Made by a program: the position numbers and the translations under genes. The notes beneath the pieces are model-generated. The model did not search any database. It worked only from the letters and a program-made list of their open reading frames with translations, and was not told the origin of the DNA. From Mycolicibacterium madagascariense (lineage in GTDB: Bacteria > Actinomycetota > Actinomycetes > Mycobacteriales > Mycobacteriaceae): a stretch of DNA of 64,000 bases. Of this stretch, positions 3,035 through 56,880 are shown in pieces. The stretch covers positions 1,178,001-1,242,000 of the forward strand of contig NZ_AP022610.1 of assembly GCF_010729665.1 (NCBI RefSeq), given 5' to 3'. The first letter of the stretch is position 1, and each line of letters opens with the position of its first letter.

Positions 3035-3077
3035 ACCGTCATCGTCGCCGGAGACGGCCGAACTCCGACGTCCTCTA

Positions 3078-3130
3078 GCGATTCGTGTCGTTTCCGGAGC
3101 GCTCGGCGCGACGCAACTGACACGAATCGC
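3078..3130. terminator. terminator hairpin after mftR
   Basis: Perfect 12-bp inverted repeat GCGATTCGTGTC (3078-3089) with its complement at 3119-3130, loop 29 bases. It lies just past the mftR stop on the minus strand and upstream of the ECF sigma gene. The core resembles the hairpin at 1240-1294, which also starts with GCGATT. Confidence 0.55.
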
Positions 3131-3138
3131 CGGGGGAG

Positions 3139-3741
3139 CTAGGGGTCGAGGGCGGCCAGGCCCGAGCTGACCGCGTCGAACGCCGCCCCGAGCGCCGTCT
3201 GCAGCGAGGCGGACTCGTCGGCCAGCCAGTTCTCATAGGCCGACATCGCCACGCCGAGCATCGTCCATGCGATGGTCTGGGGCACCAGGTCGACGGCCTT
3301 GACGCCGAGCCGGCGGGCGACGAAGTCGGCGACCACGGCGCGCCACCCGGCGTACATGGTCATCGAATGTGCTTGCAGCGCAGCTGTTTCCAGAATCACC
3401 CGCATGCGTTCGCGGTGCCGGGCGGTCTCGGTCTCGTCGAACCGGTTGAACGCGAGCAGGGCCGATCGCAGGGCGACGCTCATCGGCGCGTCGTACGGCT
3501 CGGCGTGCAGCAGACCTCGCATGAGGCCGAGATGGGCGTCGAAGTCGCCCCACGGGATGGCGTTCTTGGTCGGGTAGTACCGGAACAGCGTGCGACGGGA
3601 GATGCCGGCGGCGCGGGCGACGTCGTCGACGCTGACGTCGTCGAAGCCGCGCTCGGCGAACAGGTCGAGGGCCACGTTGGTGATGTGGTCCTGCGTGGTG
3701 GACCGCCGTCGACCGACGCGGTGGGAGGGCCCGGAATTCAT
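3139..3741 (-). CDS. mftR: MftR, TetR-family regulator of the mycofactocin locus
   Basis: A 200-residue TetR-type repressor, divergent from mftA. The N-terminal helix-turn-helix is plain at about residues 17-62 ([19 protein letters not shown], then [16 protein letters not shown]), followed by an all-helical ligand domain. MftR is the conserved TetR regulator of mycofactocin clusters and has been reported to respond to acyl-CoAs. The chosen ATG at 3741 has the GGAAGG ribosome-binding stretch at a sensible distance; a second ATG at 3777 would add 12 residues and run further into the shared promoter. Position and family together make the assignment firm; the operator is not certain. Confidence 0.93.
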
Positions 3742-3832
3742 CGAAACCCACCCTTCCTTTTCGGCACTCGATGCCATATTGTTGCGACCTGTATCACTAT
3801 TGTGCAAGCACGCGACTCGAAGGGGTGCACGA
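3742..3832. promoter_or_regulatory. mftR-mftA divergent control region
   Basis: A 91-base AT-richer gap between the divergent mftR and mftA genes, so it must hold both promoters and probably the MftR site. Two near-identical direct repeats, ATTGTTGC (about 3778-3785) and ATTGTGCA (about 3799-3806), stand 21 bases apart, about two helical turns. No long perfect palindrome is present, and neither promoter could be assigned with confidence. Confidence 0.5.
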
Positions 3833-3928
3833 ATGGAGCCGAACCAGCAGGTGGAGACCGAGCCCGAACTCGTCACCGAGAGCCTCGTCGAAGAGGTCTC
3901 GATCGACGGTATGTGCGGGGTCTACTGA
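3833..3928 (+). CDS. mftA: mycofactocin precursor peptide MftA
   Basis: A 31-residue ribosomal peptide starting [11 protein letters not shown] and ending in the invariant core IDGMCGVY. The C-terminal Val-Tyr is the part that becomes the redox cofactor: MftC decarboxylates and crosslinks it, MftE releases it, MftD oxidises it, and MftF glycosylates it. The acidic leader (about residues 1-23) is what MftB binds. The ATG is preceded by a purine-rich AAGGGG about 7 bases upstream. It is 31 residues, within the family range, and the stop is two bases before the mftB start. Nothing is odd; the core is intact. Confidence 0.97.
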
Positions 3929-3930
3929 TC

Positions 3931-4230
3931 GTGGCGGCACCCGTCACGGACGCGCGCGCGTTCGATCCCGACGTTCGATGGCGGGTGCACCATCAGGTCG
4001 CGGTGCGGCCCGAGCCGTTCGGCGCGCTGCTGTATCACTTTGGCACGCGCAAGCTTTCGTTCCTGAAGAACACGACCATCGTCGAAGTCGTCACGTCGCT
4101 GAACGACCACCCCGACGCCAGGTCCGCGTTGCGGGCCGCCGGCGTCGACGACGCCTCGGCGGCGCCCTATCTGCACGCGCTCGGCGTGCTCGTCTCATCC
4201 CAGATGCTCGTCCGCGAGGAGAACACGTGA
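3931..4230 (+). CDS. mftB: MftB, mycofactocin precursor chaperone
   Basis: A 99-residue RiPP recognition element (PqqD-like fold) that binds the MftA leader and presents it to the radical SAM enzyme MftC. The start is GTG at 3931, two bases after the mftA stop; no in-frame ATG is nearby. Family features are the segments VRWRVHHQVAVRPEPFGALLYH and the F-G-T-R-K-L-S-F-L strand, followed by a helical C-terminus ending LVREENT. The last codon region overlaps the mftC start in a GTGA, so translation is coupled to mftC. Assignment rests on sequence type plus fixed order between mftA and mftC. Confidence 0.94.
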   Translation: MAAPVTDARAFDPDVRWRVHHQVAVRPEPFGALLYHFGTRKLSFLKNTTIVEVVTSLNDHPDARSALRAAGVDDASAAPYLHALGVLVSSQMLVREENT

Positions 4231-5423
4231 CCACGATGCAGCCCGTTCCCCGGCTGGTCGATCAGTTCGAGCGCGGTCTGGACGCGCCGATCTGCCTGAC
4301 CTGGGAACTGACCTACGCCTGCAACCTGGCGTGCGTGCACTGTCTGTCGTCGTCGGGCAAACGCGATCCGCGCGAGCTGTCGACGCAGCAGTGCAAGGAC
4401 GTCATCGACGAGCTGCAGCGCATGCAGGTGTTCTACGTCAACATCGGCGGCGGTGAGCCGACCGTGCGCTCGGACTTCTGGGAGTTGGTCGACTACGCGA
4501 CCGCCCACCAGGTCGGGGTCAAGTTCTCCACCAATGGCGTGCGGATCACCCCCGAGGTGGCGACCAAGCTGGCCGCCAGCGACTACGTCGACGTCCAGAT
4601 CTCCCTCGACGGCGCGACCGCGGAGGTCAACGACGCCGTCCGTGGCGCCGGATCGTTCGCCATGGCGGTGCGCGCCCTGGAGAACCTGGCCGCGGCGGGC
4701 TTCCGCGACGCCAAGATCTCCGTCGTCGTCACCCGGCACAACGTCGATCAGCTCGACGAATTCAAGGCGCTGGCAGACCGATTCGGCGCCACGCTGCGGA
4801 TCACCCGGTTGCGGCCGTCGGGTCGCGGCGCCGACGTGTGGGACGAACTGCACCCGACCGCCGCCCAGCAGGTGCGCCTCTACGACTGGCTGGTCGCCCA
4901 CGGCGAGGGCGTGCTGACGGGTGACTCGTTCTTCCACCTGTCGGGGCTGGGCGCACCGGGCGCGTTGGCCGGACTGAACCTGTGCGGGGCCGGTCGCGTC
5001 GTGTGCCTCATCGACCCCGTCGGCGACGTGTACGCGTGCCCGTTCGCCATCCACGATCGGTTCCTCGCCGGAAACATCCTGTCCGACAGCGGGTTTCAGA
5101 ACGTCTGGCAGAACTCCACGCTGTTCCGCGAACTGCGTGAGCCGCAGTCGGCCGGGGCCTGCGGCAGCTGCGACCACTACGACGGTTGCCGTGGCGGCTG
5201 CATGGCCGCCAAGTTCTTCACCGGTCTACCGATGGACGGCCCCGACCCCGAGTGCGTGGTCGGCTACGGCGAACCGGCGTTGGCGCGCGAGCGGGAGCGG
5301 CCCAAGCCCAGCGGCGACCACTCCCGCGGCGCGGGCGCGACGCGCTCCGGCCAGGGTCCCGTTCCACTGAAACTCCTCACCCGTCCGCCGCAAGGCAAAC
5401 CCTGCAACGAAAGTCCCTTATAG
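4227..5423 (+). CDS. mftC: MftC, radical SAM/SPASM mycofactocin maturase
   Basis: A 398-residue radical SAM enzyme that oxidatively decarboxylates the C-terminal Tyr of MftA and then forms the Val-Tyr carbon-carbon bond giving a lactam. The CX3CX2C cluster-binding motif is CNLACVHC near residue 29, followed by the GGEP SAM motif (NIGGGEPT, about residue 73). The C-terminal SPASM region supplies cysteines for auxiliary 4Fe-4S clusters (VVCLIDPVGDVYACPF, then CGSCDHYDGCRGGCM and a final C near PDPEC). GTG start overlaps the mftB stop. Past the last SPASM cysteine the tail is Arg/Pro-rich, low complexity and probably disordered. Confidence 0.96.
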   Translation: MTTMQPVPRLVDQFERGLDAPICLTWELTYACNLACVHCLSSSGKRDPRELSTQQCKDVIDELQRMQVFYVNIGGGEPTVRSDFWELVDYATAHQVGVKFSTNGVRITPEVATKLAASDYVDVQISLDGATAEVNDAVRGAGSFAMAVRALENLAAAGFRDAKISVVVTRHNVDQLDEFKALADRFGATLRITRLRPSGRGADVWDELHPTAAQQVRLYDWLVAHGEGVLTGDSFFHLSGLGAPGALAGLNLCGAGRVVCLIDPVGDVYACPFAIHDRFLAGNILSDSGFQNVWQNSTLFRELREPQSAGACGSCDHYDGCRGGCMAAKFFTGLPMDGPDPECVVGYGEPALARERERPKPSGDHSRGAGATRSGQGPVPLKLLTRPPQGKPCNESPL

Positions 5424-5426
5424 CTC

Positions 5427-6611
5427 ATGGCTCGTGACGTCTGGTTCGAAACCGTCTCCATCGCTCAGCAGCGCGCCAAGAAGCGGCTGCCCAAGTCGGT
5501 CTACAGCGCGTTGATCGCGGCGAGTGAGCGTGGCATCACCGTCGGCGACAACGTCGACGCGTTCGGGGAGCTCGGCTTCGCCCCGCACGTCATCGGTGCG
5601 CTGGAGAAGCGTGACCTCGCCACCACCGTGATGGGACAAGAGATCTCGCTGCCGGTGATGATCTCCCCGACCGGTGTGCAGGCCGTGCACCCCGACGGTG
5701 AGGTCGCCGTCGCCAGGGCGGCCGCCGCGCGCGGCACGGCGATGGGGCTGTCGTCATTTGCCAGCAAGCCCATCGAGGACGTCATCGCCGCCAACCCCAA
5801 ACTCTTCTTCCAGGTCTACTGGCTGGGTGGACGCGACGAGATCGCCGCGCGCATCGAGCGGGCGCGGGCGGCGGGTGCGGTCGGCATCATCGTCACCACC
5901 GACTGGACGTTCAGTCACGGCCGCGACTGGGGCAGCCCGAAGATTCCGCAGGAGATGGATCTCAAGACCATCATCAAGATGATGCCCGAGGGTCTGACCC
6001 GGCCCCGGTGGATGGTGCAGTGGGGCAAGACGCTGCGACCGCCGAACCTGCGCGTGCCCAACCAGGGCGCCGCCGGTGAGCAGGGCCCGCCGTTCTTCGC
6101 CGCCTACGGCCAGTGGATGACCACGCCGCCACCGACGTGGGAGGACATCGCCTGGGTCGCCGAACTGTGGGGTGGACCGCTGATGCTCAAGGGCATCATG
6201 CGCCTCGACGACGCCAAACGTGCCGTGGATGCCGGGGTTTCGGCCATCTCGGTGTCCAATCACGGCGGCAACAACCTCGACGGCACGCCTGCGTCGATCC
6301 GCGCGCTGCCGGTCATCGCCGAGGCGGTGGGAGACCAGGTCGAGGTGTTGCTCGACGGTGGCATCCGACGCGGCAGCGACGTCGTCAAGGCCGTCGCGCT
6401 GGGGGCGCGGGCGGTGATGCTCGGCCGCGCGTACCTGTGGGGCCTGGCCGCCGAGGGGCAGCCCGGCGTGGAGAACGTCCTCGACATCATGCGCGCGGGG
6501 ATCGACTCCGCCCTCATGGGCCTGGGCAAGGCCTCCATCCACGACCTGACCCCCGACGACGTCCTGGTGCCGCCGGGGTTCACCAGGACCCTGGGCGCCC
6601 CGACCACCTAG
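5427..6611 (+). CDS. mftD: MftD, FMN-dependent premycofactocin synthase
   Basis: A 394-residue FMN-dependent alpha-hydroxyacid dehydrogenase family protein. In the pathway it oxidatively deaminates the AHDP intermediate released by MftE to premycofactocin (an alpha-keto amide), which has the redox function. The FMN/substrate site is visible as ISVSNHGGNNLDG (about residues 273-285, with the catalytic His) and the phosphate-binding segment LLDGGIRRGSDVVKAVALGA (about 309-328) followed by the GRAYLWGL motif. Length is usual for the family. It starts three bases after mftC, in the same operon. Confidence 0.95.
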   Translation: MARDVWFETVSIAQQRAKKRLPKSVYSALIAASERGITVGDNVDAFGELGFAPHVIGALEKRDLATTVMGQEISLPVMISPTGVQAVHPDGEVAVARAAAARGTAMGLSSFASKPIEDVIAANPKLFFQVYWLGGRDEIAARIERARAAGAVGIIVTTDWTFSHGRDWGSPKIPQEMDLKTIIKMMPEGLTRPRWMVQWGKTLRPPNLRVPNQGAAGEQGPPFFAAYGQWMTTPPPTWEDIAWVAELWGGPLMLKGIMRLDDAKRAVDAGVSAISVSNHGGNNLDGTPASIRALPVIAEAVGDQVEVLLDGGIRRGSDVVKAVALGARAVMLGRAYLWGLAAEGQPGVENVLDIMRAGIDSALMGLGKASIHDLTPDDVLVPPGFTRTLGAPTT

Positions 6612-6763
6612 GCGGCCGGCCGAGCTGGTCCCGGTGGGGCGGGCGGTGCTCACGTGGCGGACGTGATGCGCTGACCGTACGCGGGTGTATTTCTGCCGAA
6701 TCAATTGCTGCGCAAACCCCAACAATCGGCGCACGCCAGGTGGATTCGGCCTACGATCGGCGG

Positions 6764-7471
6764 GTGGTCTTCCCCAGCGAGCTTGGGAACTCAACGGCGA
6801 GGCAGCTCCACGATCTGTCCCCAGCGTTGATCATCCCGCTAGGTTCAACCGAGCAGCATGGGCCACACCTGCCGGTCGACACCGACACCCGGATCGCATC
6901 CGCTGTTGCCAGCGGGATTGCTGAGCGACTGGCCGGGGACTGGCTGCTGGCGCCCGCGATCGGCTATGGGGCCAGCGGAGAGCACGAGGGATTTCCCGGC
7001 ACCGTCTCGATTGGCACCGCTGCGCTGCAGCTCCTGCTGGTCGAGTACGGCCGATCGGCAGGTGGCTGGGCTCGTCGGCTGGTGTTCGTCAACGGCCATG
7101 GAGGCAACGTATCCGCGGTTGCTGCGGCCGTCGGGCTGCTGCGCCGGGAGGGTCGCGACGCGGCGTGGTGCGCGTGCCGCGTGGACGGCGCCGACGCCCA
7201 TGCCGGACACACCGAAACGTCTGTATTGCTACATATTTCGCCCGAGGTGGTGCGCACCGCGGACTGGGTGGCGGGCAACGAGGCGCCGCTGTCGGACCTG
7301 ATGCCGCGGATGCGCGCGGGCGGAGTCGCGGCCGTCAGCCCGGTCGGAGTGCTCGGCAACCCCACCACGGCAACCGCCCAAGACGGGTCGCGTATCTTTG
7401 CTGAAATGGTCGACGACTGCGCCAGCCGCATCACGGCGTGGAAACCCGGCGCCGGGGGGTTCCTGCAGTGA
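6764..7471 (+). CDS. mftE: MftE, creatininase-family mycofactocin peptidase
   Basis: A 235-residue creatininase-fold metallopeptidase that cleaves MftC-modified MftA to release the Val-Tyr-derived AHDP. Metal-site motifs are [16 protein letters not shown] (about residues 24-39), [12 protein letters not shown] and VNGHGGN (about 105-111). The start needs care: a GTG at 6740 adds eight residues (VDSAYDRR), but TACGAT at 6752-6757 is a good -10 box lying six bases before the GTG at 6764. A leaderless start at 6764 is therefore preferred. The 152-base gap after mftD also suggests a second promoter. The stop overlaps the mftF GTG start. Confidence 0.92.
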
Positions 7472-8880
7472 CGGGACCGCGGTTGCCCGACGGATTCGCC
7501 GTGCAGGTGGACAGGCGGGTCAGGGTGCTCGGGGAGGGGTCGGCGCTTCTCGGTGGCTCGCCGACCCGGCTGCTGCGCCTCGCGCCCGCCGCGCAGACGA
7601 TGCTGAGCAGTGGGCGGCTGGAAGTCCACGACGCGCAGAGCGCCCAGCTGGCCAGGACCCTGCTCGACGCGACCGTGGCGCATCCGCGACCGGCCAGCGG
7701 ACCGTCGCACCGCGACGTCACCGTCGTCATTCCGGTGCGGGACAACGCGATTGGGTTGAATCGTCTGGTCCGGTCGCTGCGCGGGATGCGGGTGATCGTG
7801 GTCGACGACGGATCGTCGCCGCCGGTCGAGGTCGCTGACTTCGCCGGGCCGCACTGCGACATCCGCCTGCTCCGCCACGACGCGAGCCGGGGCCCCGCGG
7901 CCGCGCGCAACACCGGACTGGCGGCCTGCGACACGGACTTCGTCGCGTTCCTCGACTCCGACGTCGTGCCCCGTCGCGGATGGCTCGAGGCGCTGCTCGG
8001 ACACTTCTGCGATCCCGCGGTGGCCCTGGTGGCGCCGCGCATCGTCGGGTTGCGAGAACCGGGCAATCTCGTCGCCCGCTACGAGGCCGTGCGGTCGTCG
8101 CTCGACCTCGGCCTGCGCGAGGCGCCCATCGTGCCCTACGGCACGGTGTCCTACGCGCCCAGCGCCGCGATCATCTGCCGACGGTCCACCCTGCAGCAGG
8201 TCGGTGGTTTCGACGAGTCGCTGAGCTCCGGGGAGGACGTCGACCTGTGTTGGCGTTTCATCGAGGCCGAGGCCCGGCTGCGCTACGAGCCGATCGCGCT
8301 GGTCGGTCACGACCATCGCACGAAGCTACGAGACTGGTTGGTGCGCAAGGCTTTCTACGGATCGTCGGCAGCGCCGCTGGCGATCCGCCATCCCGGCAAG
8401 ACCGCGCCGCTGGTGCTGTCCGGATGGACGATGCTGGTGTGGGTGCTGTTGGCGATGGGCTCGAGCGTCGGGCTCGTCGCCTCGACCGTCGTCGCGGCGA
8501 TCACGGGCCGCAAGATCGCCAAGGCGCTCGACACCGTCGACACCGAGCCCAGAGAGGTGGCCGCCGTCGCGGCCCAGGGACTCTGGTCGGCGGCCCTGCA
8601 GCTGGCATCGGCGATCTGCCGGCACTACTGGCCCGTGGCGCTGGTGGCCGCCATCCTGTTCCGCCGGTGCCGCCAGGTGGTCTTGGTGGCCGCCGTCGTC
8701 GACGGCGTCGTCGACTGGGTGGGCCGCAACGGCAACGCCGACGACGACGGCAAGCGGGTCGGTCTGCTGGGCTACCTGCTGCTCAAGCGTCTCGACGACC
8801 TCGCCTACGGCTACGGGCTGTGGCGCGGCGTCCTGCGCGAACGTCATCTCGGCGCGCTCAAGCCGCAGATCCGGACCTAG
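7468..8880 (+). CDS. mftF: MftF, mycofactocin glucosyltransferase
   Basis: A 470-residue family 2 glycosyltransferase that decorates premycofactocin with beta-1,4-linked glucose. The nucleotide-sugar fold begins at about residue 88 ([11 protein letters not shown]), with VIVVDDGS and the metal-binding FLDSDV (about 155-160); the acceptor-side motif is [10 protein letters not shown] (about 253-262). Two or three hydrophobic stretches near the C-terminus ([30 protein letters not shown]) suggest membrane association. The GTG start at 7468 overlaps the mftE stop (GTGA) and gives the length typical of mycobacterial MftF; an upstream start at 7438 would only add residues antiparallel to nothing known. 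Confidence 0.94.
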
Positions 8881-8888
8881 CCGGCGCC

Positions 8889-10301
8889 TTGCATTCCGAC
8901 GTCCTGATCGTCGGTGCTGGCAGCGCCGGTTGCGTTCTCGCCGTAGCTCTTTCGCGTGATCCGCACTGCCACGTGGCGGTCGCCGAAGCGGGTCCGGGAC
9001 CGTCGGACCCGGCCGTCGTCGACCAGATCGGCAACGGCACCGCCCTGCCGATCGGGCCACGGAGCTCGGTGGTGCGACGCTACGAGACGACGCTGACCGA
9101 ACGTCCCGCGCGGTCCGCCTCGATCATGCGGGGCGCCGTCGTCGGCGGGTCGGGCGCGGTCAACGGCGGCTACTTCGTGCGCGGGCTGGCGACCGACTTC
9201 GACGGCTGGGGCATTCCCGGCTGGTCCTGGGCCGACGTGCTGCCACACTTCCTCGACGTCGAGACCGACCTGGACTTCACCGGGCCGCTACACGGTTCCG
9301 CCGGCCCGATGCGCATTCGCCGGGTGACCGAATTCGAGACGGGCGCAGCCGCTTTCATCGACGCGGCGCGCGACCACGGCTACCCGTGGGTGGACGATCT
9401 CAACGGTGACGCGCCGGGGCGCGCCGGCGTGGGCGCCGTCCCGCTCAACATCGACGCGGGCCGCAGGCTCGGGCCCGGCGAGGCGTTCCTCGGACCGGCC
9501 GCGGACCGACCGAACCTGGCCGTGCATCCGCACACCAGGGCCCTGCGCATCGCGTTCGCCGGCCACCGCGCCATCGGCGTCGACTGCGTCGGCGCGCGGG
9601 GACGGCAGCGACTGACCGCCGACCGCGTCGTGCTCGCGGCGGGCGCGATCGGCTCGGCACACCTGCTCATGCTGTCGGGCATCGGGCCGGCCGGGCTGCT
9701 GTCCGCCGCGGGCGTGCCAGTGCTCGCCGACCTACCGGTGGGGACGCGCAGCGTCGATCATCCCGAATGGGTGCTGCCCGTCGACTGGCCCGCGGCGCCG
9801 GGGCATCCGCCGCTGGAAGCCCTGCTCACCACCGCAACCGGTCTCGAGATCCGTTGTTACACGACGGGTTTCGGGGCGATGATCGGTGGCGACCACGATC
9901 CGGCGGACCGGCCGCACCTCGGGGTGACGCTCATGCGCCCGCACTCCCGCGGCACCGTCACCCTGGCCTCGGCCGATCCCGACGTGGCGCCGCTCATCCG
10001 GCACCGCTACGACGACGACGCCCGCGACGTCGAACTGCTCGCCGCGGGCGCCGAGCTCGCCCACGACCTGGCGGGGTCGGGGTACCACGCCAGGGAGTCG
10101 AACTGGTCGACGTCGCAGCACCTGTGCGGCACGGTGCCGATGGGCGAAGACGGTCAGGCGCCGCTCGACGAGCGTTGCCGGGTGCGGGGATTGGAGGGGC
10201 TGTGGGTCGTCGACGGCTCCATCCTGCCCGCCATCACCAGCCGCGGACCGCACGCCACGATCGTGATGATCGGCCACCGCGCAGCGGAATTCATCCGTTG
10301 A
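8889..10301 (+). CDS. mftG: MftG, GMC oxidoreductase, mycofactocin dehydrogenase
   Basis: A 470-residue glucose-methanol-choline (GMC) flavoprotein. In mycobacteria MftG reoxidises reduced mycofactocin and feeds electrons toward the respiratory chain, which is needed for alcohol use. The FAD fold opens the protein (SDVLIVGAGSAGCVLAVAL, residues 3-21); the GMC signature RGAVVGGSGAVNGGYFVRG is near residues 81-99. The C-terminal active-site region includes STSQHLCGTVPMG and VVDGSILPAITSRGPHATI. No ATG or GTG is available near the fold; TTG at 8889, eight bases after the mftF stop, is taken as start and gives MHSDVLIVG. Its 3' end overlaps the convergent racemase gene by 11 bases. Confidence 0.92.
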   Translation: MHSDVLIVGAGSAGCVLAVALSRDPHCHVAVAEAGPGPSDPAVVDQIGNGTALPIGPRSSVVRRYETTLTERPARSASIMRGAVVGGSGAVNGGYFVRGLATDFDGWGIPGWSWADVLPHFLDVETDLDFTGPLHGSAGPMRIRRVTEFETGAAAFIDAARDHGYPWVDDLNGDAPGRAGVGAVPLNIDAGRRLGPGEAFLGPAADRPNLAVHPHTRALRIAFAGHRAIGVDCVGARGRQRLTADRVVLAAGAIGSAHLLMLSGIGPAGLLSAAGVPVLADLPVGTRSVDHPEWVLPVDWPAAPGHPPLEALLTTATGLEIRCYTTGFGAMIGGDHDPADRPHLGVTLMRPHSRGTVTLASADPDVAPLIRHRYDDDARDVELLAAGAELAHDLAGSGYHARESNWSTSQHLCGTVPMGEDGQAPLDERCRVRGLEGLWVVDGSILPAITSRGPHATIVMIGHRAAEFIR

Positions 10302-10956
10302 CGCGGCGCATCGTGACCAGCGCCTCGGCCAGCAGAGTGGCGGCCACCACCCCGTCGACGACGGGGACGCCGAGCCGTGCACCGAGCGGCGCGGCGAACG
10401 GCGCCATCGCGGCGCAGCCGAGCACGATGGCGCGGCTGCCGTCCTGCGCCAGCGCCTTCTCGCAGAGATCGCCGACCGGCTCGATCGTGCCGGGATCGGA
10501 ATCGAGCACCAGCACCGGGATGTCGCAGGCGTACACGCCGAGACACTGACTGGGCGTGTACGTCTTCGCCAGCGACCACGCCGTCGGCACCGTCGACGAC
10601 ATCGAGGTCACCACCGAGAAGCTGCCTGCGCCCAGGGCCGCGGCGTGCATGGCCGCCTGCGCGATGCCGAGCACGGGCACGTCGACCGCGGCGCGCACCC
10701 GTTCCAGGCCGGGGTCGCCGAAGCAGGCGATCACGACGGCGTCGGGTGCCTGCGCGGACGCCGCAGCCTTGAAGACCTCGTCGAGAAGCCCTGGGAGGCA
10801 ACGACGTTCGTCGTCGTCGCTCTCGATGCTCGCGGGACCGCCCACGGGGTTGACCGCGACGACCTCGGTGCCGGGCCCGGCGACGGCGCGCGCGCTCGCC
10901 CCGATGGCCTCGGTCATCGACGCGGTGCTGTTGGGATTGACGATCAGGAGCCGCAC
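10291..10956 (-). CDS. Asp/Glu/hydantoin racemase family protein
   Basis: A 221-residue cofactor-independent racemase of the Asp/Glu/hydantoin superfamily, which inverts a chiral carbon by a two-base mechanism. Both catalytic cysteines are in place: VVIACFGDPGLE (about residue 76) and IVLGCAAMAPFA (about residue 179). The N-terminal LLIVNPNST and the segment GIAQAAMHAA are family hallmarks. It could be a hydantoin or allantoin racemase or an arylmalonate-decarboxylase relative; the substrate cannot be chosen. The GTG start lies inside the 3' end of a small gene, and the 3' end overlaps mftG by 11 bases on the other strand. It probably belongs to the operon controlled by the divergent TetR gene. 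Confidence 0.85.
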   Translation of the reverse strand: MRLLIVNPNSTASMTEAIGASARAVAGPGTEVVAVNPVGGPASIESDDDERRCLPGLLDEVFKAAASAQAPDAVVIACFGDPGLERVRAAVDVPVLGIAQAAMHAAALGAGSFSVVTSMSSTVPTAWSLAKTYTPSQCLGVYACDIPVLVLDSDPGTIEPVGDLCEKALAQDGSRAIVLGCAAMAPFAAPLGARLGVPVVDGVVAATLLAEALVTMRRVNG

Positions 10957-45115: not shown

Positions 45116-46345
45116 TCACGTGGAGTGGACCGGTACGGACGGCAGCGGAATGGTCGCCGTCACCGCGGTCCCCGAACCCGGTCGTGACCGGATGTTGAGT
45201 CGGCCGCCGACGATTTCGGCGCGTTCGGCCATCGACAGCAGCCCGTAGCCGCCCATCTCGTCACCGCCGAGGGGATGCTCGAACGTGTCGAAGCCGACGC
45301 CGTTGTCGACGATCTCCAACCGCGCCACGTCCTCGCTCACCGAGAACGTCAGGCTCGCATTGGTGGCGCCCGCATGCTTGACGACGTTCTGCAGGCACTC
45401 CTGGGCGATGCGGTAGAGAGCGATCTCGATGTGGTCGGGCAGCCGCGCGTCGGCGAGGTCGACGTCGATGAAGAGGCCGACGGCCACCTGCGGGATGGAC
45501 CGGGCCAGGCTCGCCAGCCCGCCGGCCAGGCCGAGGTCGTCGAGCACCGGCGGGCGCAGCCCTCCGATCGCGGCGCGCGCCTCCTGCAGGGTCAAATCCA
45601 CCAATTCCCGTGCCAGTCCCAGTTGTTCGGCCGCCTCGGAGCCCTCGCCGATCGCCCTGCTCGCCGCATCCAGCCGGTAGGACAGCGTCACCAGCCGCTG
45701 GGAGATGCCGTCGTGAATGTCACCGGCGAGCCGACGGCGCTCCATCTCCTGGGCCTCGATGACCTGCTCGACGAAGTTCTCGTGCGCGCGTTCGCGGGCC
45801 ACCAGCTGCCGGTGCAGCCGGGCCTGGTGCATCGCGCCGGCAATGAGCCTGCCGATCACCAGCAGGAGTTCGACGTCGCGGTCGGCGAATTCGCGGCGCT
45901 CGACGGTGTGCACGTTGAGCACGCCGACCAGGCCGCCGGGCTCGGTCTCCATCGGTACCGACACCATCGACGTGAAGTCAGAACCGCGCAGCGACTCGAA
46001 CGGCAGGTAGCGGGGATCGTCCTCCTTGTCGTGGATGATGACGACCGGCTCCCGCACCCGCGCCACCCAGCCGGACACGCCCTGACCGAGCGGTAACCGA
46101 ATCTTGCCGACCTGGCTGTCGAAGGGCGGCGTCGCGCCCGTCAGCGTGAGGGACTGCTCGGCGTCGTCGAGCACGTGCACGAAGCAGACGTCGGTGCCGG
46201 TCGCCGCGGTGATCATCCTGGCGGCGGCCTCGGCGAGCGGCTCGACGCCGGGACCGCGCGACGCCGCCTGAATGAGCTCGCGCAGCAGCGCCAGCTCGCG
46301 GTCGGCGTCGACGAGGTCGCGGACGGCGTTCGGCTTGGCGGTCAT
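45116..46345 (-). CDS. GAF-domain histidine kinase (NarL/DevS type)
   Basis: A 409-residue soluble sensor kinase. A GAF domain spans about residues 40-185 (ATGTDVCFVHVLDDAEQSL to LLLVIGRLIAGAMHQ). The HisKA_3 dimerisation box is RRRLAGDIHDGISQRLVTL with the phospho-accepting His near residue 218. The ATPase domain shows NVVKHAGATN, DNGVGFD and GGYGLLSMAERAEIVGG. There is no membrane helix, so the signal is cytosolic or diffusible. ATG overlaps the stop of the response regulator gene (ATGA). Confidence 0.92.
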   Translation of the reverse strand: MTAKPNAVRDLVDADRELALLRELIQAASRGPGVEPLAEAAARMITAATGTDVCFVHVLDDAEQSLTLTGATPPFDSQVGKIRLPLGQGVSGWVARVREPVVIIHDKEDDPRYLPFESLRGSDFTSMVSVPMETEPGGLVGVLNVHTVERREFADRDVELLLVIGRLIAGAMHQARLHRQLVARERAHENFVEQVIEAQEMERRRLAGDIHDGISQRLVTLSYRLDAASRAIGEGSEAAEQLGLARELVDLTLQEARAAIGGLRPPVLDDLGLAGGLASLARSIPQVAVGLFIDVDLADARLPDHIEIALYRIAQECLQNVVKHAGATNASLTFSVSEDVARLEIVDNGVGFDTFEHPLGGDEMGGYGLLSMAERAEIVGGRLNIRSRPGSGTAVTATIPLPSVPVHST

Positions 46346-46998
46346 CGGTAGATCCCCTCCCGCAGCGCCGTCGCCACGGCACCGGTGCGGTCGGTGACGC
46401 CGAGTTTGCGGTAGATCGCCCGCAGGTGGGTCTTGACGGTCTCGTCGCCGATCACCAGCTTGGTGGCGATGCCCCGGTTGGACAGCCCGTCGACGACGTA
46501 GGAGAGGATCTCGCTCTCGCGCTGGGTCAGGCCTTGCCGTGCGCCAGGCCAGAACTCGTCGCGCTGCAACCGGGCGGCGGTGTCGACGGCGCGGGCCGCC
46601 ATGACGGGGTCGATCGCGGTCTTGCCCGCGTGGGCGAACTCCAGCTGGCGCACCAGCTCGTCGCTGCCGATGCTCTTCAGCAGGTAGCCCGCTGCGCCCA
46701 CCCGCAACGCCTGGAACAGGTACTGCTCGTCGTCGTAGACCGACAGCATGACGACCTTGCGGGCGGGATCGCGGTGGCGCAGCGCCGCGCACAGGTCGAG
46801 CCCGCTGGAGCCCTGCATGCGGACGTCGCACAGCACGATGTCGGGATCCAGGTCGGCGACGACGCCCATCGCCCGGTCCGCGCCGACGGCCTGCCCGACG
46901 ACCTCGACGCGTTCGCCGAAGGCCGTCAGCATGGCCTTGAGCCCCTCGATGACCATCTCGTGGTCGTCGACGAGCACGAGGCGCACGGGACCCGACAT
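46342..46998 (-). CDS. LuxR/NarL-family response regulator
   Basis: A 218-residue response regulator. Receiver: LVLVDDHEMVIEGL, phospho-acceptor Asp in VLCDVRM (about residue 58) and Lys in YLLKS. The LuxR-type HTH is LTQRESEILSYVVDGLSNRGI to TVKTHLRAIYRKLGV at the C-terminus. Cotranscribed and translationally coupled with the GAF kinase, forming a full two-component system with unknown signal. Confidence 0.94.
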   Translation of the reverse strand: MSGPVRLVLVDDHEMVIEGLKAMLTAFGERVEVVGQAVGADRAMGVVADLDPDIVLCDVRMQGSSGLDLCAALRHRDPARKVVMLSVYDDEQYLFQALRVGAAGYLLKSIGSDELVRQLEFAHAGKTAIDPVMAARAVDTAARLQRDEFWPGARQGLTQRESEILSYVVDGLSNRGIATKLVIGDETVKTHLRAIYRKLGVTDRTGAVATALREGIYR

Positions 46999-53378: not shown

Positions 53379-54848
53379 CTAGTCCGCCGAGTCGGCGGGG
53401 GCCTCCTCGGGCTTCGGCGCGACGAGCGGCAGCACGACGATGAAGCGGGTGTCGCCCGGCGCGGACTCCACCCGGATGTTGCCGTGGTGCTTCTGCGCGA
53501 CGATGCGCCAGGCCAGGTCGAGACCGAGGCCGGTGCCCTCGCCGAAGGCCTTCGTGGTGAAGAACGGCGTGAAGATGCGTTCGACGATCTCGGCCGGGAT
53601 GCCCGGCCCGTCGTCACCGATGACGACCTTGATGGCGTCCTCGCCGACGGCCATGGTCGTGATCGTCAGGGTGCCGTGACCGCCCATCGCCTGGATCGCG
53701 TTGTCGATGACGTTGGTCCACACCTGATTGAGATCGCCTGGGTAACAAAGGATTTCGGGCAGCGTCAGATCCCAGTCCTTGACGAGCTTGACCGGCTTGT
53801 CCTTGCCGATCTTCTCGCCGAACATCATCAGCGTGCTGCGCAGCAGGTCATGGACGTTGGCGCTCTGGTACGGCGCGCGGTCCATCTGGGAGTACTGCTT
53901 GGCGCCCGCCAGCAGCGCCGAGATGCGGCTGCTGGCCTCGGCGATCTGATTCATCATCAGCTCGGTGTCGATGGTGTATCGCAACCAGCCGATCGCACCC
54001 TGCAGCGACGCCGTCGCATCGACCTCGTCGACCGAGGCCGAGATGCGTTCCAGCCAGTCGGTGTCCAGCCCCGCCTCGACGAACGTCGGGGCGTAGTCCC
54101 ACGCCGCGGCGATGCCGTGCTCCTCGAGCCAGTCACCGATGGCGTCCTCGCGGTCGGAGGCCTCCAGCGCGGTCAGCTCGAGCGCCTTGGACTTGGCGAC
54201 CTGCTCGGCCACCTCCTCCTGGATGGTGACCAGGACGCGCAGACCCTCGGGGCTGAACTTGCCGTCGGCGAGCATCGCCAGCTTGTGCCGCATCCCGGCG
54301 ACCTTCTCGCGCAGATCCGACACGGCGCGGGCGGCCGCGGCGGCGGGGTTGTTCAGCTGGTGCGTCAGGCCCGCCGAGAGCTGCCCCAGCGCCAGCAGCT
54401 TCTCCCGCTGGTCGATGATCTGGCGGGCCCGCAGACCGCCGACCTTGAGGCCTTCGAGCAGGTGCACCGCCATCGGGAGCTCCGCCCTGACGAAGTCGCC
54501 GAAGGCCGCCGCGTCGAGCACGAAGAACTTCGACGGCTTGGTCACCCGCACCGAGGATTCGTAGACCTGGGGCACCCCGTCGACGAACGCGCTCCACGCA
54601 CCGCAGTACACGCCGCGCTGCGAGGTCCGGTTGGTCTCGATGTCGGCGCCGCCCGAGCGCTTCGACATCACCAGCTCGCCCTCGATGAGGACGTAGAAGC
54701 ACGTCGCGGCCTCGCCCTCGATGCAGATCGGGCCGGGCTCGAAGCGCGCCAGGTGCCCGTTCTCGCACAGCGTCTTGAGTTGACGGTCGCTCAGCTTCTC
54801 GAACAGGAACAGCGTGCGCAGCTCGTCGGGCAGACAGGTCTCGCCCAT
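53379..54848 (-). CDS. histidine kinase with N-terminal CRP-like (cNMP-binding-fold) domain
   Basis: A 489-residue soluble sensor kinase. A cyclic-nucleotide-binding beta-roll covers about residues 12-125 ([29 protein letters not shown]). The phosphate-binding cassette of true cAMP binders is not recognisable ([18 protein letters not shown]), so the ligand may be different. Then come a long helical segment, the H-box [18 protein letters not shown] (His near 168), and the ATPase domain with [25 protein letters not shown] and GTGLGLDLA. It follows the receiver-flavoprotein gene by 22 bases, so the two form a pair. Confidence 0.88.
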
Positions 54849-54870
54849 GTGTGGTCCTTTCCCGGGGCCC

Positions 54871-56571
54871 TCAGGCCTCTGCCAAATAGCGGTGCACCAG
54901 CATCACGGCCATCGAACCCTCGCCGACCGCGGCGGCCACCCGCTTGGCGGAGTCCGCGCGCACGTCTCCTGCAACGAAGACCCCGGGCACACTTGTTTCC
55001 AGGTGGTGCGGCGGCCGGTCACGATGGCTCCAGCCGACGACGTCCTTGAGGTCCGGTCCGGCGAGGACGAACCCGCGGTCGTCGAGGGCCAGCACGCCGT
55101 CGAGCCAGCCGGTGCGCGGCGTCGCGCCGATGAAGCAGCACATCCGACCGCAGGGCACCGTGGTGCGCTCACCGGACTGCTTGTTCTCCAGCACCAGGGC
55201 GGACAGGTGACCGTCCTCGCCGACGGTGTCGACGACCTCGGTGCAGGTCATGACCTTGATCGTGGGGTTCTTCTCGATCTGCTCGATGAGGTAGTGCGAC
55301 ATCGACGCCTCCAGCGACGGCCCGCGGACGAGCAGCGTCACCGACTTCGCGGTCTTCGACATGAACATCGCGGCCTGGCCCGCCGAATTGGCGCCACCGA
55401 CGATGTAGACGTCCTCGCCGCGGCACTCCTCGGCATCGGACACCGAGGCGCCGTAGTACACCCCGCGCCCGACGTAGTTGCAGCCGTCGGGGTCCGCGGG
55501 ATCACTCCAGCATCCGACGACCTGCAACTCCTGGTACTCCACGCCGGTCGCCAGGATCACCGAGCGCGCGCCGATGGTGCTGCCGTCCTCGAACTCGATG
55601 GTCGGAGCGGCATCGCCGACGTGCAGTTTGACGACGTCGCGGGTGGTGATGACCTCCGCGCCGAACCGCTCGGCCTGCCTGCGGGCGGAGTTCGTCAGCT
55701 CCGCGCCCGAGACGCCGATCGGGAAGCCGAGGTAGTTCTCGATCCGCGAACTGCGGCCGGCCTGACCGCCGGTCGTGGCCTTCTCGATGAGGACGGTCTC
55801 CAGTCCCTCCGAGGCGCCGTACACCGCGGAGGCGAGGCCGGCGGGCCCGCCGCCGATGACCGCCAGGTCGTACATCGGCAACGACGGCTCGGTGGAGAGC
55901 CCGAGGAGCTCGGCCAGCTCGGCGTCGGTGGGCTCGACGAGCGGATCGCCCTTCTCGGTGATGACCACCGGCAGTTGTCTGCCGTCGAGGTTGGCGGCAT
56001 CGAGCAGCTGCTTGCCCTTGGGCTCGTCGGCCATGAACGCGTGGAAGGGGAACTGGTTGCGCGCCAGGAACTGGCGAACCTCCCACGACCGCTGGCTCCA
56101 GCGGTGGCCGATGACCTTGGTGTAGGGGATGGCCCGGTCGCCGACGGCGCGCCACTCCTCGAGGAGCCCGTCGATGACGGGGTAGAGCTTCTCCTCCGGC
56201 GGGTCCCACGGCTTGAGCAGGTAGTGGTCGAGGTCGACGACGTTGATGGCGTCGATCGCGGCGTGGGTGTCGGCGTAGGCCGTCAGCAGCACGCGCTTGG
56301 CCAGGGGGAACAGGTCCATGGCCTTTTCGAGGAACTCGATGCCGCTCATCTGCGGCATCCGGTAGTCGGCCACCAGCACGGCCGCGGTCTCACCGCGCAG
56401 CTTCAGTTCCTTCAGGGTGGCCAGTGCGTCGGGCCCGCTCTCCGCCCGCACGATGCGGTACCGCTCGCCGTAGTGGCGGCGCAGATCACGGGCAACGGCG
56501 CGCGACACCGCGGGATCATCGTCCACGGTAAGAATCACGGGGTTGCGGGGCTGGGCAGTGGATCCAGTCAT
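54871..56571 (-). CDS. receiver / glutaredoxin-like / thioredoxin-reductase-like fusion flavoprotein
   Basis: A 566-residue fusion. Residues 12-140: response-regulator receiver ([14 protein letters not shown], phospho-Asp in [13 protein letters not shown], Thr in LLTAYAD, Lys in [12 protein letters not shown]). About 152-230: a glutaredoxin/thioredoxin-like strand-helix pattern ([20 protein letters not shown] ... QLPVVI) with no CXXC. From 235: thioredoxin-reductase fold, FAD motif [24 protein letters not shown] motif [16 protein letters not shown] and [15 protein letters not shown]. The redox CXXC is absent; its place reads [16 protein letters not shown]. Presumably binds FAD and NADPH but cannot reduce thioredoxin. 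ATG 56571 is the first ATG; GTG codons just above are alternatives. Partner of the downstream kinase. Confidence 0.88.
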
Positions 56572-56880
56572 CACCACCAATTATGCGCTGGTCGTCCAAT
56601 CGATATCGGCTGGCCGCGACACCGGCACCCGCCGTTACTCCGAGGGCGAAATCGGGTCGTCCCCCGGGCCCGTCCGGCGGGGGTCACCGCCGCGTGCCGG
56701 GGGCGTCTCCGCGCTGGTACTGCGGCAATTTTGGGGAGCGCCGAGGAGCGAGTACGATGGGACAACGGTGCGGCATCCGCGCCGGCTCTCGCGTGCCCTG
56801 TCCTGGAATTCAACCAATCCGGCTCACGTTCTGTAGTCGGAGGCGGTGCTTGCGGCGCCAGACAGGGAACTACGGAGGAC
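56572..56880 (+). promoter_or_regulatory. infA promoter and divergent control region
   Basis: About 309 bases without a gene. The infA promoter is probably TTGGGG (56731-56736) and TACGAT (56753-56758), spacer 16, giving a leader of about 115 bases. Near the flavoprotein start there is an AT-rich palindrome CGATATCG (56601-56608). GTAGTCGGAGGCGGTGC and TACGGAGGACAT lie before infA; the latter supplies its ribosome-binding site. Confidence 0.6.

Follow-up and report, generated by a model that had tools for sequence, protein, structure and literature searches.

A dedicated pair of histidine kinase and receiver-flavoprotein in Mycolicibacterium madagascariense: a possible two-component switch acting on a flavin module without thiol pairs

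Introduction

Two-component systems which control an enzyme directly are uncommon, and a locus in Mycolicibacterium madagascariense raises the question whether it encodes one. In a stretch of 64,000 nucleotides (contig NZ_AP022610.1, positions 1,178,001 to 1,242,000; in the following the window) a receiver domain is fused to a flavoprotein resembling thioredoxin reductase (TrxR), and 22 bases downstream, both genes being on the minus strand, lies the gene for a soluble histidine kinase with a CRP-like fold. Do the two genes belong together, and what could the receiver control? This arrangement had been described in a sequence-only reading of the window and was borne out by the open reading frames (ORFs) and by Pfam, which finds Response_reg (E 3e-13) and Pyr_redox_2 (E 9.1e-28) in the flavoprotein and HATPase_c (E 2.8e-23) in the kinase. 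The same reading postulated that phosphorylation acts directly on the chemistry of flavin adenine dinucleotide (FAD) and NADPH, which is possible. The answer we arrive at is that the two genes are a dedicated, conserved pair, which is likely to control a redox step other than thioredoxin reduction.

The fusion of a receiver with TrxR is already in print; a published census names it as a “Mycobacterium-like combination” (PMC5847659), and UniRef carries it as “Fused response regulator/thioredoxin-di...”. No kinase partner is described in the accessible part of that census. In the literature no study was found on the mechanism of the pair, on the missing thiols of the flavoprotein or on its kinase, and no paper joins “fused response regulator” with “thioredoxin-disulfide reductase”, or “UBP-type zinc finger” with “thioredoxin reductase”. 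Three features go beyond the sequence-only reading: a hidden glutaredoxin-like domain, the absence of both CxxC pairs and, in the kinase, a helical insert.

The kinase and the receiver-flavoprotein are a dedicated pair

The key residues of the receiver, the acidic pair (D17 and D18), the phosphorylated Asp (D69), the Thr (T97) and the Lys (K120) in the numbering of the 566-residue protein, are all present, as had been noticed before. The receiver-flavoprotein was found in 98 of 148 genomes of the genus. In 96 of these the kinase gene comes directly downstream; one genome has it at a distance of 421 bp, and in the last a contig end cuts it off. No kinase was found in the other 50 genomes (E 1e-60). 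Three of the 98 flavoproteins are partial, split or carry a stop, and a 99th match is a receiver-less copy. In seven of the 98 genomes (G014, G019, G027, G037, G042, G052 and G098) two family kinases stand in tandem behind the flavoprotein gene.

A scan of named genomes gave at least 115 confirmed loci, and the best 80 were used for the counts below (46 receiver-type, 30 with a CRP fold in cis and 4 other). At 38 of the 46 loci of the receiver type the kinase gene lies no more than 300 bp off, and at a 39th the distance is 2.5 kb. Of the seven left over, five have degenerate receivers, L089 is at a contig end, and L069 is treated below. None of the 30 CRP-in-cis loci has an adjacent kinase. 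The pair is found in seven phyla (Actinomycetota, Cyanobacteriota, Bacteroidota, Pseudomonadota, Gemmatimonadota, Thermomicrobiota and Acidobacteriota). When 27 whole genomes were searched, an intact receiver-type protein turned up in nine, and these nine alone encode a full-length family kinase; one further genome holds both proteins only as fragments. In an order of the Bacteroidota (148 genomes) the receiver type occurs in 46 genomes, 44 of which also encode the kinase, linked or not, and 35 of the 48 receiver-type copies have it within 500 bp. How often the two genes stay adjacent, a question posed by the sequence-only reading, can thus be answered with mostly.

The two proteins also diverge together (Mantel r 0.947 for 76 pairs, a set which counts one locus twice since L050 repeats the contig of L005), although shared descent alone would give the same. 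Because of the adjacency, the co-divergence and the decay of receiver residues where the kinase is missing, we conclude that the two genes are a dedicated and conserved pair.

Besides the kinase and a zinc finger no recurrent neighbour was seen by eye in 15 displayed loci, and no recurrent transcription regulator either; the only candidate is one NarL-like ORF (L084), beside a pair which is still adjacent. The possibility of a phage-defence system was rejected since PADLOC gave no match.

Receivers without a kinase have decayed

From the Actinomycetota 28 receiver-type copies without an adjacent kinase match were fetched, some of them second copies in genomes which also have a proper pair. All except L153, which is split, could be aligned. 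Of the aligned copies 25 have lost at least one of the five key residues; the two others are L154, which is cut by the contig start, and the intact L156. When all receiver-type loci are counted with duplicates removed, setting aside two intact and four degenerate loci near contig ends and three partial receivers, 75 intact receivers (L156 included) and no degenerate one go with a kinase; 25 degenerate receivers and a single intact one (L069) are without. The genome of L069 encodes two full kinases elsewhere. In some degenerate receivers (DDDVK or DDDIK) the phosphorylation site is kept and only the Thr is lost.

The L156 locus (3039-7699, minus strand) encodes a hybrid kinase with receivers and a histidine phosphotransfer (Hpt) domain, a family kinase with a receiver in the place of the CRP fold, and the receiver-flavoprotein. 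This variant operon looks like a true relay. The phosphorelay postulated in the sequence-only reading fits this one odd locus; at the window the system would be a simple kinase-receiver pair.

The flavoprotein has lost both cysteine pairs

TrxRs work with paired sulfur residues, and these are missing. The family alignment consists of 146 different relatives (110 receiver-type, 32 CRP-type and 4 other), none of which has the CxxC of TrxR; as positive controls, two canonical TrxR ORFs from the genome of the window show CATC. The TIGR01292 (TrxB) score of the flavoprotein is 201.9 bits against a cut-off of 343.45, a cut-off which the split canonical copies of the genome itself also fail to reach. 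An ordinary thioredoxin reductase is rejected because of the missing CxxC, and the thioredoxin-reductase-like chemistry of the sequence-only reading is not supported. Proteins known as REC-thioredoxin reductase response regulators have the same architecture and a name which implies thiol-disulfide chemistry, against which the missing CxxC speaks; judged from the sequences, the database name is probably wrong for this flavoprotein. Among the relatives the motifs for FAD are near-invariant, and so is a large part of the second Rossmann motif.

For each of the three canonical TrxR-like genes of the genome (G000:C1 15030-15928, 5687302-5688200 and 5696069-5696962; L159, L160, L163 and L164) the matches fall in more than one frame, perhaps because of a fault in the assembly.

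The region between the receiver and the flavoprotein module has no Pfam match in the window protein. A profile of 46 members found the mycoredoxin-like Rv3198.1 (2lqo) as best match in the PDB (E 1.3e-8), and AlphaFold predicts a beta-alpha-beta-alpha-beta-beta-alpha order. Pfam Glutaredoxin matches 11 of the 46 members, the window protein not among them, and a Pro at the sequence position of the thioredoxin-fold cis-Pro is invariant (46/46). This middle domain thus has the fold of Rv3198.1 and the glutaredoxins without their two active cysteines: the WCGYC of Rv3198.1 aligns with WSQRS, so that SQRS stands in the CxxC place. Not one of the 146 rows keeps both cysteines, mostly Ser or Thr being found there, and the first alone is kept in four, all CRP-type.

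A different cysteine, Cys383, is present in 100 of the 146 rows: in 66 of 78 with an intact receiver, 30 of 32 CRP-type, 1 of 29 with a degenerate receiver, 1 of 3 with a partial receiver and 2 of 4 other.

Predicted structure of the flavoprotein

The AlphaFold model (pLDDT 82.5, pTM 0.65, 29 sequences) contains the two-domain FAD/NAD(P)H fold of TrxR. Folds were compared with VIA-align, a comparison which covered chiefly flavoprotein residues 230-566 and kinase residues 124-478. The rmsd of the FAD/NAD(P)H module is 2.1-2.5 Å to the ten TrxR chains which fit best; these include the flavin-reducing (FR) form of Lactococcus lactis, 5mh4, and the TrxR-thioredoxin complex of E. coli, 1f6m, which we take to be an FR form as well. 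To the flavin-oxidizing (FO) form of L. lactis, 5mjk, and to E. coli 1tde it is about 8 Å. The model suggests that the module is in an FR-like arrangement in which NAD(P)H would face the flavin.

From TrxB (TIGR01292; 2a87 of M. tuberculosis) the protein thus differs by its missing CxxC, its score below the cut-off, the extra receiver and glutaredoxin-like domains and the predicted FR-like arrangement. AhpF, a thioredoxin-like part fused to TrxR, is matched in both sequence and fold searches and likewise has a thioredoxin-fold part ahead of a TrxR-like core; the window protein has a single glutaredoxin-like domain, no CxxC in either part and a receiver in front. The TrxR-like ferredoxin/flavodoxin-NADP reductases are less similar to it than TrxR in both sequence and fold.

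The kinase

The H, N, G1, F and G2 boxes of histidine kinases are present in the window kinase, in which Pfam finds no HisKA match; its model has a long helix carrying H163 and a second long helix. A His is found at this position in 37 of 37 aligned kinases, followed by Q in 13 and E in 24, and the near-invariant residues include H163, N383, D412, G414, G416, F429, G438, G440 and G442. The order in the AlphaFold model (pLDDT 81.4, pTM 0.47) is CRP barrel, long His163 helix, four helices (200-276), second long helix (282-323) and catalytic domain. ThkA and ZraS are the nearest structures, from which the kinase differs by its CRP-fold sensor and by the insert of about 80 residues in the hairpin of the dimerization and histidine phosphotransfer (DHp) domain.

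The Pfam cNMP_binding match of the sensor domain is exactly at the cut-off (27.5 bits), and the places of CRP Glu72 and Arg82 are taken by Ala and Tyr, so the sequence-only reading was right that the cyclic-nucleotide phosphate cassette is not recognizable. Both canonical residues are found in 7 of 69 kinase domains and in none of 30 in-cis CRP domains. A cAMP-gated kinase is rejected, the cassette being absent from the window kinase and from 62 of the 69 domains.

In a sister family the receiver is replaced by a CRP-fold domain ahead of the same body of glutaredoxin-like and TrxR-like parts. Since this family carries the CRP fold in cis, kinase and receiver together look like a two-protein version of a control which elsewhere is exerted within one protein. 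The genome of the window also encodes such a paralogue without CxxC (L011, G000:C1, about 8594-10414, minus strand), whose neighbours are a UBP-type zinc finger, thioredoxin, clpB, dnaJ, grpE and dnaK (named by eye except for the zinc finger and the flavoprotein).

A model for the function of the pair

The model we prefer starts from the domain make-up, the intact kinase and receiver residues, the pairing, the loss of both CxxC pairs and the decay of receivers without a kinase. It postulates a one-to-one, non-transcriptional two-component pair which switches a thiol-free NAD(P)H-flavin module, and we give it about an even chance of being right. The kinase would autophosphorylate on His163, and the phosphate would pass to Asp69 of the receiver. 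The receiver would in turn control the flavoprotein, whose glutaredoxin-like and TrxR-like parts are both without cysteine pairs, so that phosphorylation gates the module; phosphotransfer, gating and the cofactors are here inferred. In the absence of a shuttling thiol pair the module would remain in the flavin-reducing arrangement, a geometry taken from AlphaFold only, and accept hydride from NAD(P)H on its FAD. The electrons would then go to a non-thiol acceptor, or the module would report the NAD(P)H/FAD state.

A number of observations weigh against this model. The structure of the flavoprotein is predicted with only moderate confidence, and its FR-like geometry may mirror the structures used in training. 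In the HRR motif of TrxR the second Arg is a contact to the 2'-phosphate of NADPH; the window protein has Gly there, which makes a preference for NADPH unsure. Cys383 is kept in 96 of the 110 rows of intact-receiver or CRP type and in 1 of the 29 with a degenerate receiver, which leaves single-thiol chemistry possible. In the Bacteroidota order 13 of the 48 receiver-type copies have no kinase within 500 bp, no kinase was found at E 1e-80 in two genomes with the receiver type (G467 and G525), and a third genome (G497) has the kinase without the receiver type. The receiver state changes only about twice on the tree of the flavoprotein part, so there are few independent events of decay, and a test on independent pairs cannot reach significance.

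If a two-component pair does act on a flavin redox module, sensing would be linked fast to redox metabolism. Redox models which count the family as TrxR would be wrong, because the sequences of relatives from several phyla argue against such chemistry. The kinase-less relatives with decayed receivers and the CRP-in-cis relatives offer themselves as natural comparisons. More tentatively, and here we would rather lean against than for, the family may be widespread bacterial redox switches, in which a glutaredoxin-TrxR relay turned, with the loss of both thiol pairs, into an NAD(P)H-flavin module open to control. It would be run by a CRP fold in cis or, in trans, by way of a kinase with such a fold and a phospho-Asp, and would govern, by two-component signalling which is post-translational rather than transcriptional, a step of low-molecular-weight thiols or thiones (mycothiol, ergothioneine) or of quinones.

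Alternative models

Some data on Mycobacterium smegmatis proteins bear on the alternatives. MSMEG_1515 and MSMEG_1516 are likely to be orthologues of the window pair, an assignment based on names, consecutive numbers, a size of about 60 kDa, 36% identity to Rv3913 and the number of Cys5. In the accessible parts of three papers (PMC7474061, PMC10433963 and PMC10745673) Msmeg_1516 is called a thioredoxin (disulfide) reductase.

According to one alternative, which we consider unlikely, the flavoprotein is a pseudo-enzyme scaffold: FAD and NAD(P)H would be only structural or sensing ligands, and phosphorylation would alter not catalysis but the binding of partners, e.g., a UBP-type zinc-finger protein or the clients of thioredoxin or mycoredoxin. 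The loss of both CxxC pairs from an otherwise intact glutaredoxin and TrxR scaffold would be explained, and cases of binding have been reported: Wildcat gp145, a toxic mycobacteriophage protein of 55 amino acids, co-precipitates Msmeg_1516 (PMC7474061), and thioredoxin docks on response regulators (PMC9584953). Genes for a UBP zinc finger were found no more than 3 kb from 15 of the 46 receiver-type, 6 of the 30 CRP-type and 2 of the 4 other loci, and among 24 receiver-less copies in the genus 16 have one within 1.5 kb; however, 31 of the 46 receiver-type loci, that of the window included, have no zinc finger within 3 kb. The near-invariant FAD and Rossmann motifs moreover argue for a working flavin chemistry. 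The idea that the zinc finger binds a Gly-Gly tail of the flavoprotein was dropped, as among the printed tails only that of L156 ends in Gly-Gly, at a locus without a zinc finger.

Somewhat less probable still is a single-cysteine reductase, in which Cys383, six residues past the lost CxxC place, would perform thiol/sulfenate chemistry, perhaps with ergothioneine or mycothiol. The distribution of Cys383 given above implies that it goes with a working regulator, yet 12 of the 78 intact-receiver rows are without it, and the contrast with the degenerate rows may be a single event because these mostly belong to one clade. A connection with ergothioneine is indicated by egtD, which occurs in 45 of 47 flavoprotein-bearing and 20 of 101 other genomes of the Bacteroidota order, and in 19 of 29 kinase-bearing and 47 of 217 other genomes of the Actinomycetota, counts uncorrected for relatedness or genome size. 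In the Bacteroidota order 6 of the 46 genomes with the receiver type have egtD no more than 5 kb from the receiver-type gene, and egtB/egtD-like ORFs stand beside CRP-type genes at two acidobacterial loci (L093 and L106). Against it, egtD is missing from 10 of the 29 kinase-bearing Actinomycetota genomes, and no adjacency was seen in the Actinomycetota tables. In Dyadobacter (L075) egtB- and egtD-like genes adjoin the flavoprotein gene.

The last alternative, which we hold to be quite improbable, makes the FAD/NAD(P)H module a sensor feeding back on receiver and kinase; the pair would measure the reductant state of the cell, and its real output would lie with some other partner of the kinase. 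Oxidation of Cys5 in MSMEG_1515, called a sensor kinase, rises from 13.1% in the control to 48.5% under hypochlorite (PMC5430705, Table 2), which together with the retention of Cys5 in 12 of 30 aligned kinases, close actinobacterial ones including that of the window, puts the kinase in a redox setting, but the more distant kinases have no Cys5 and keep the pairing, and the 15 displayed loci offer no recurrent regulator as output.

The locus in the window

The features of the pair are listed in Table 1. A TTG at 56580 is a possible earlier start of the flavoprotein ORF. Upstream of the pair lies the divergent infA (named by eye), and downstream are two genes for luciferase-like monooxygenases.

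Table 1. Features of the kinase and receiver-flavoprotein genes; positions are those of the window.
Feature	Position	Strand	Basis
Receiver + glutaredoxin-like + TrxR-like flavoprotein, 566 aa from ATG	54871..56571	-	ORF calls, Pfam, AlphaFold
Receiver domain, residues 10-140	56152..56544	-	Pfam, alignment
Asp69, predicted phosphorylation site	56365..56367	-	Alignment
Mycoredoxin/glutaredoxin-like domain, residues 151-225	55897..56121	-	Profile match, AlphaFold
TrxR-like FAD/NAD(P)H module, residues 232-566	54874..55878	-	Pfam, PDB alignment, AlphaFold
Place of missing TrxR CxxC, encodes G-A-S-V, residues 374-377	55441..55452	-	Alignment to PDB TrxRs
Cys383	55423..55425	-	Family alignment
CRP-fold (cyclic nucleotide-binding domain, cNBD) soluble histidine kinase, 489 aa	53379..54848	-	ORF calls, Pfam, AlphaFold
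CRP-like sensor domain, residues 5-135, without cAMP phosphate cassette	54444..54836	-	Pfam, AlphaFold, alignment
Cys5 of kinase	54834-54836	-	Same residue number as oxidisable Cys5 reported for MSMEG_1515
His163, predicted phosphoacceptor	54360..54362	-	Alignment
Insert of four predicted helices, residues about 200-281, separating the two DHp helices	54006..54251	-	AlphaFold
Catalytic ATP-binding domain, residues 328-475	53424..53867	-	Pfam, AlphaFold

Directly ahead of the flavoprotein gene (56580-56602, minus strand) is a conserved element, TGGAC...GCGCATA; in 14 mycobacterial upstream regions inspected by eye CATA is found in all and TGGAC in 13, and one strict pattern for a SigH-type promoter gave no match in the same number of mycobacterial upstream regions. 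The window also contains a separate, ordinary two-component pair at 45116-46998 (minus strand), consisting of a GAF-HisKA_3 kinase and a LuxR-type regulator.

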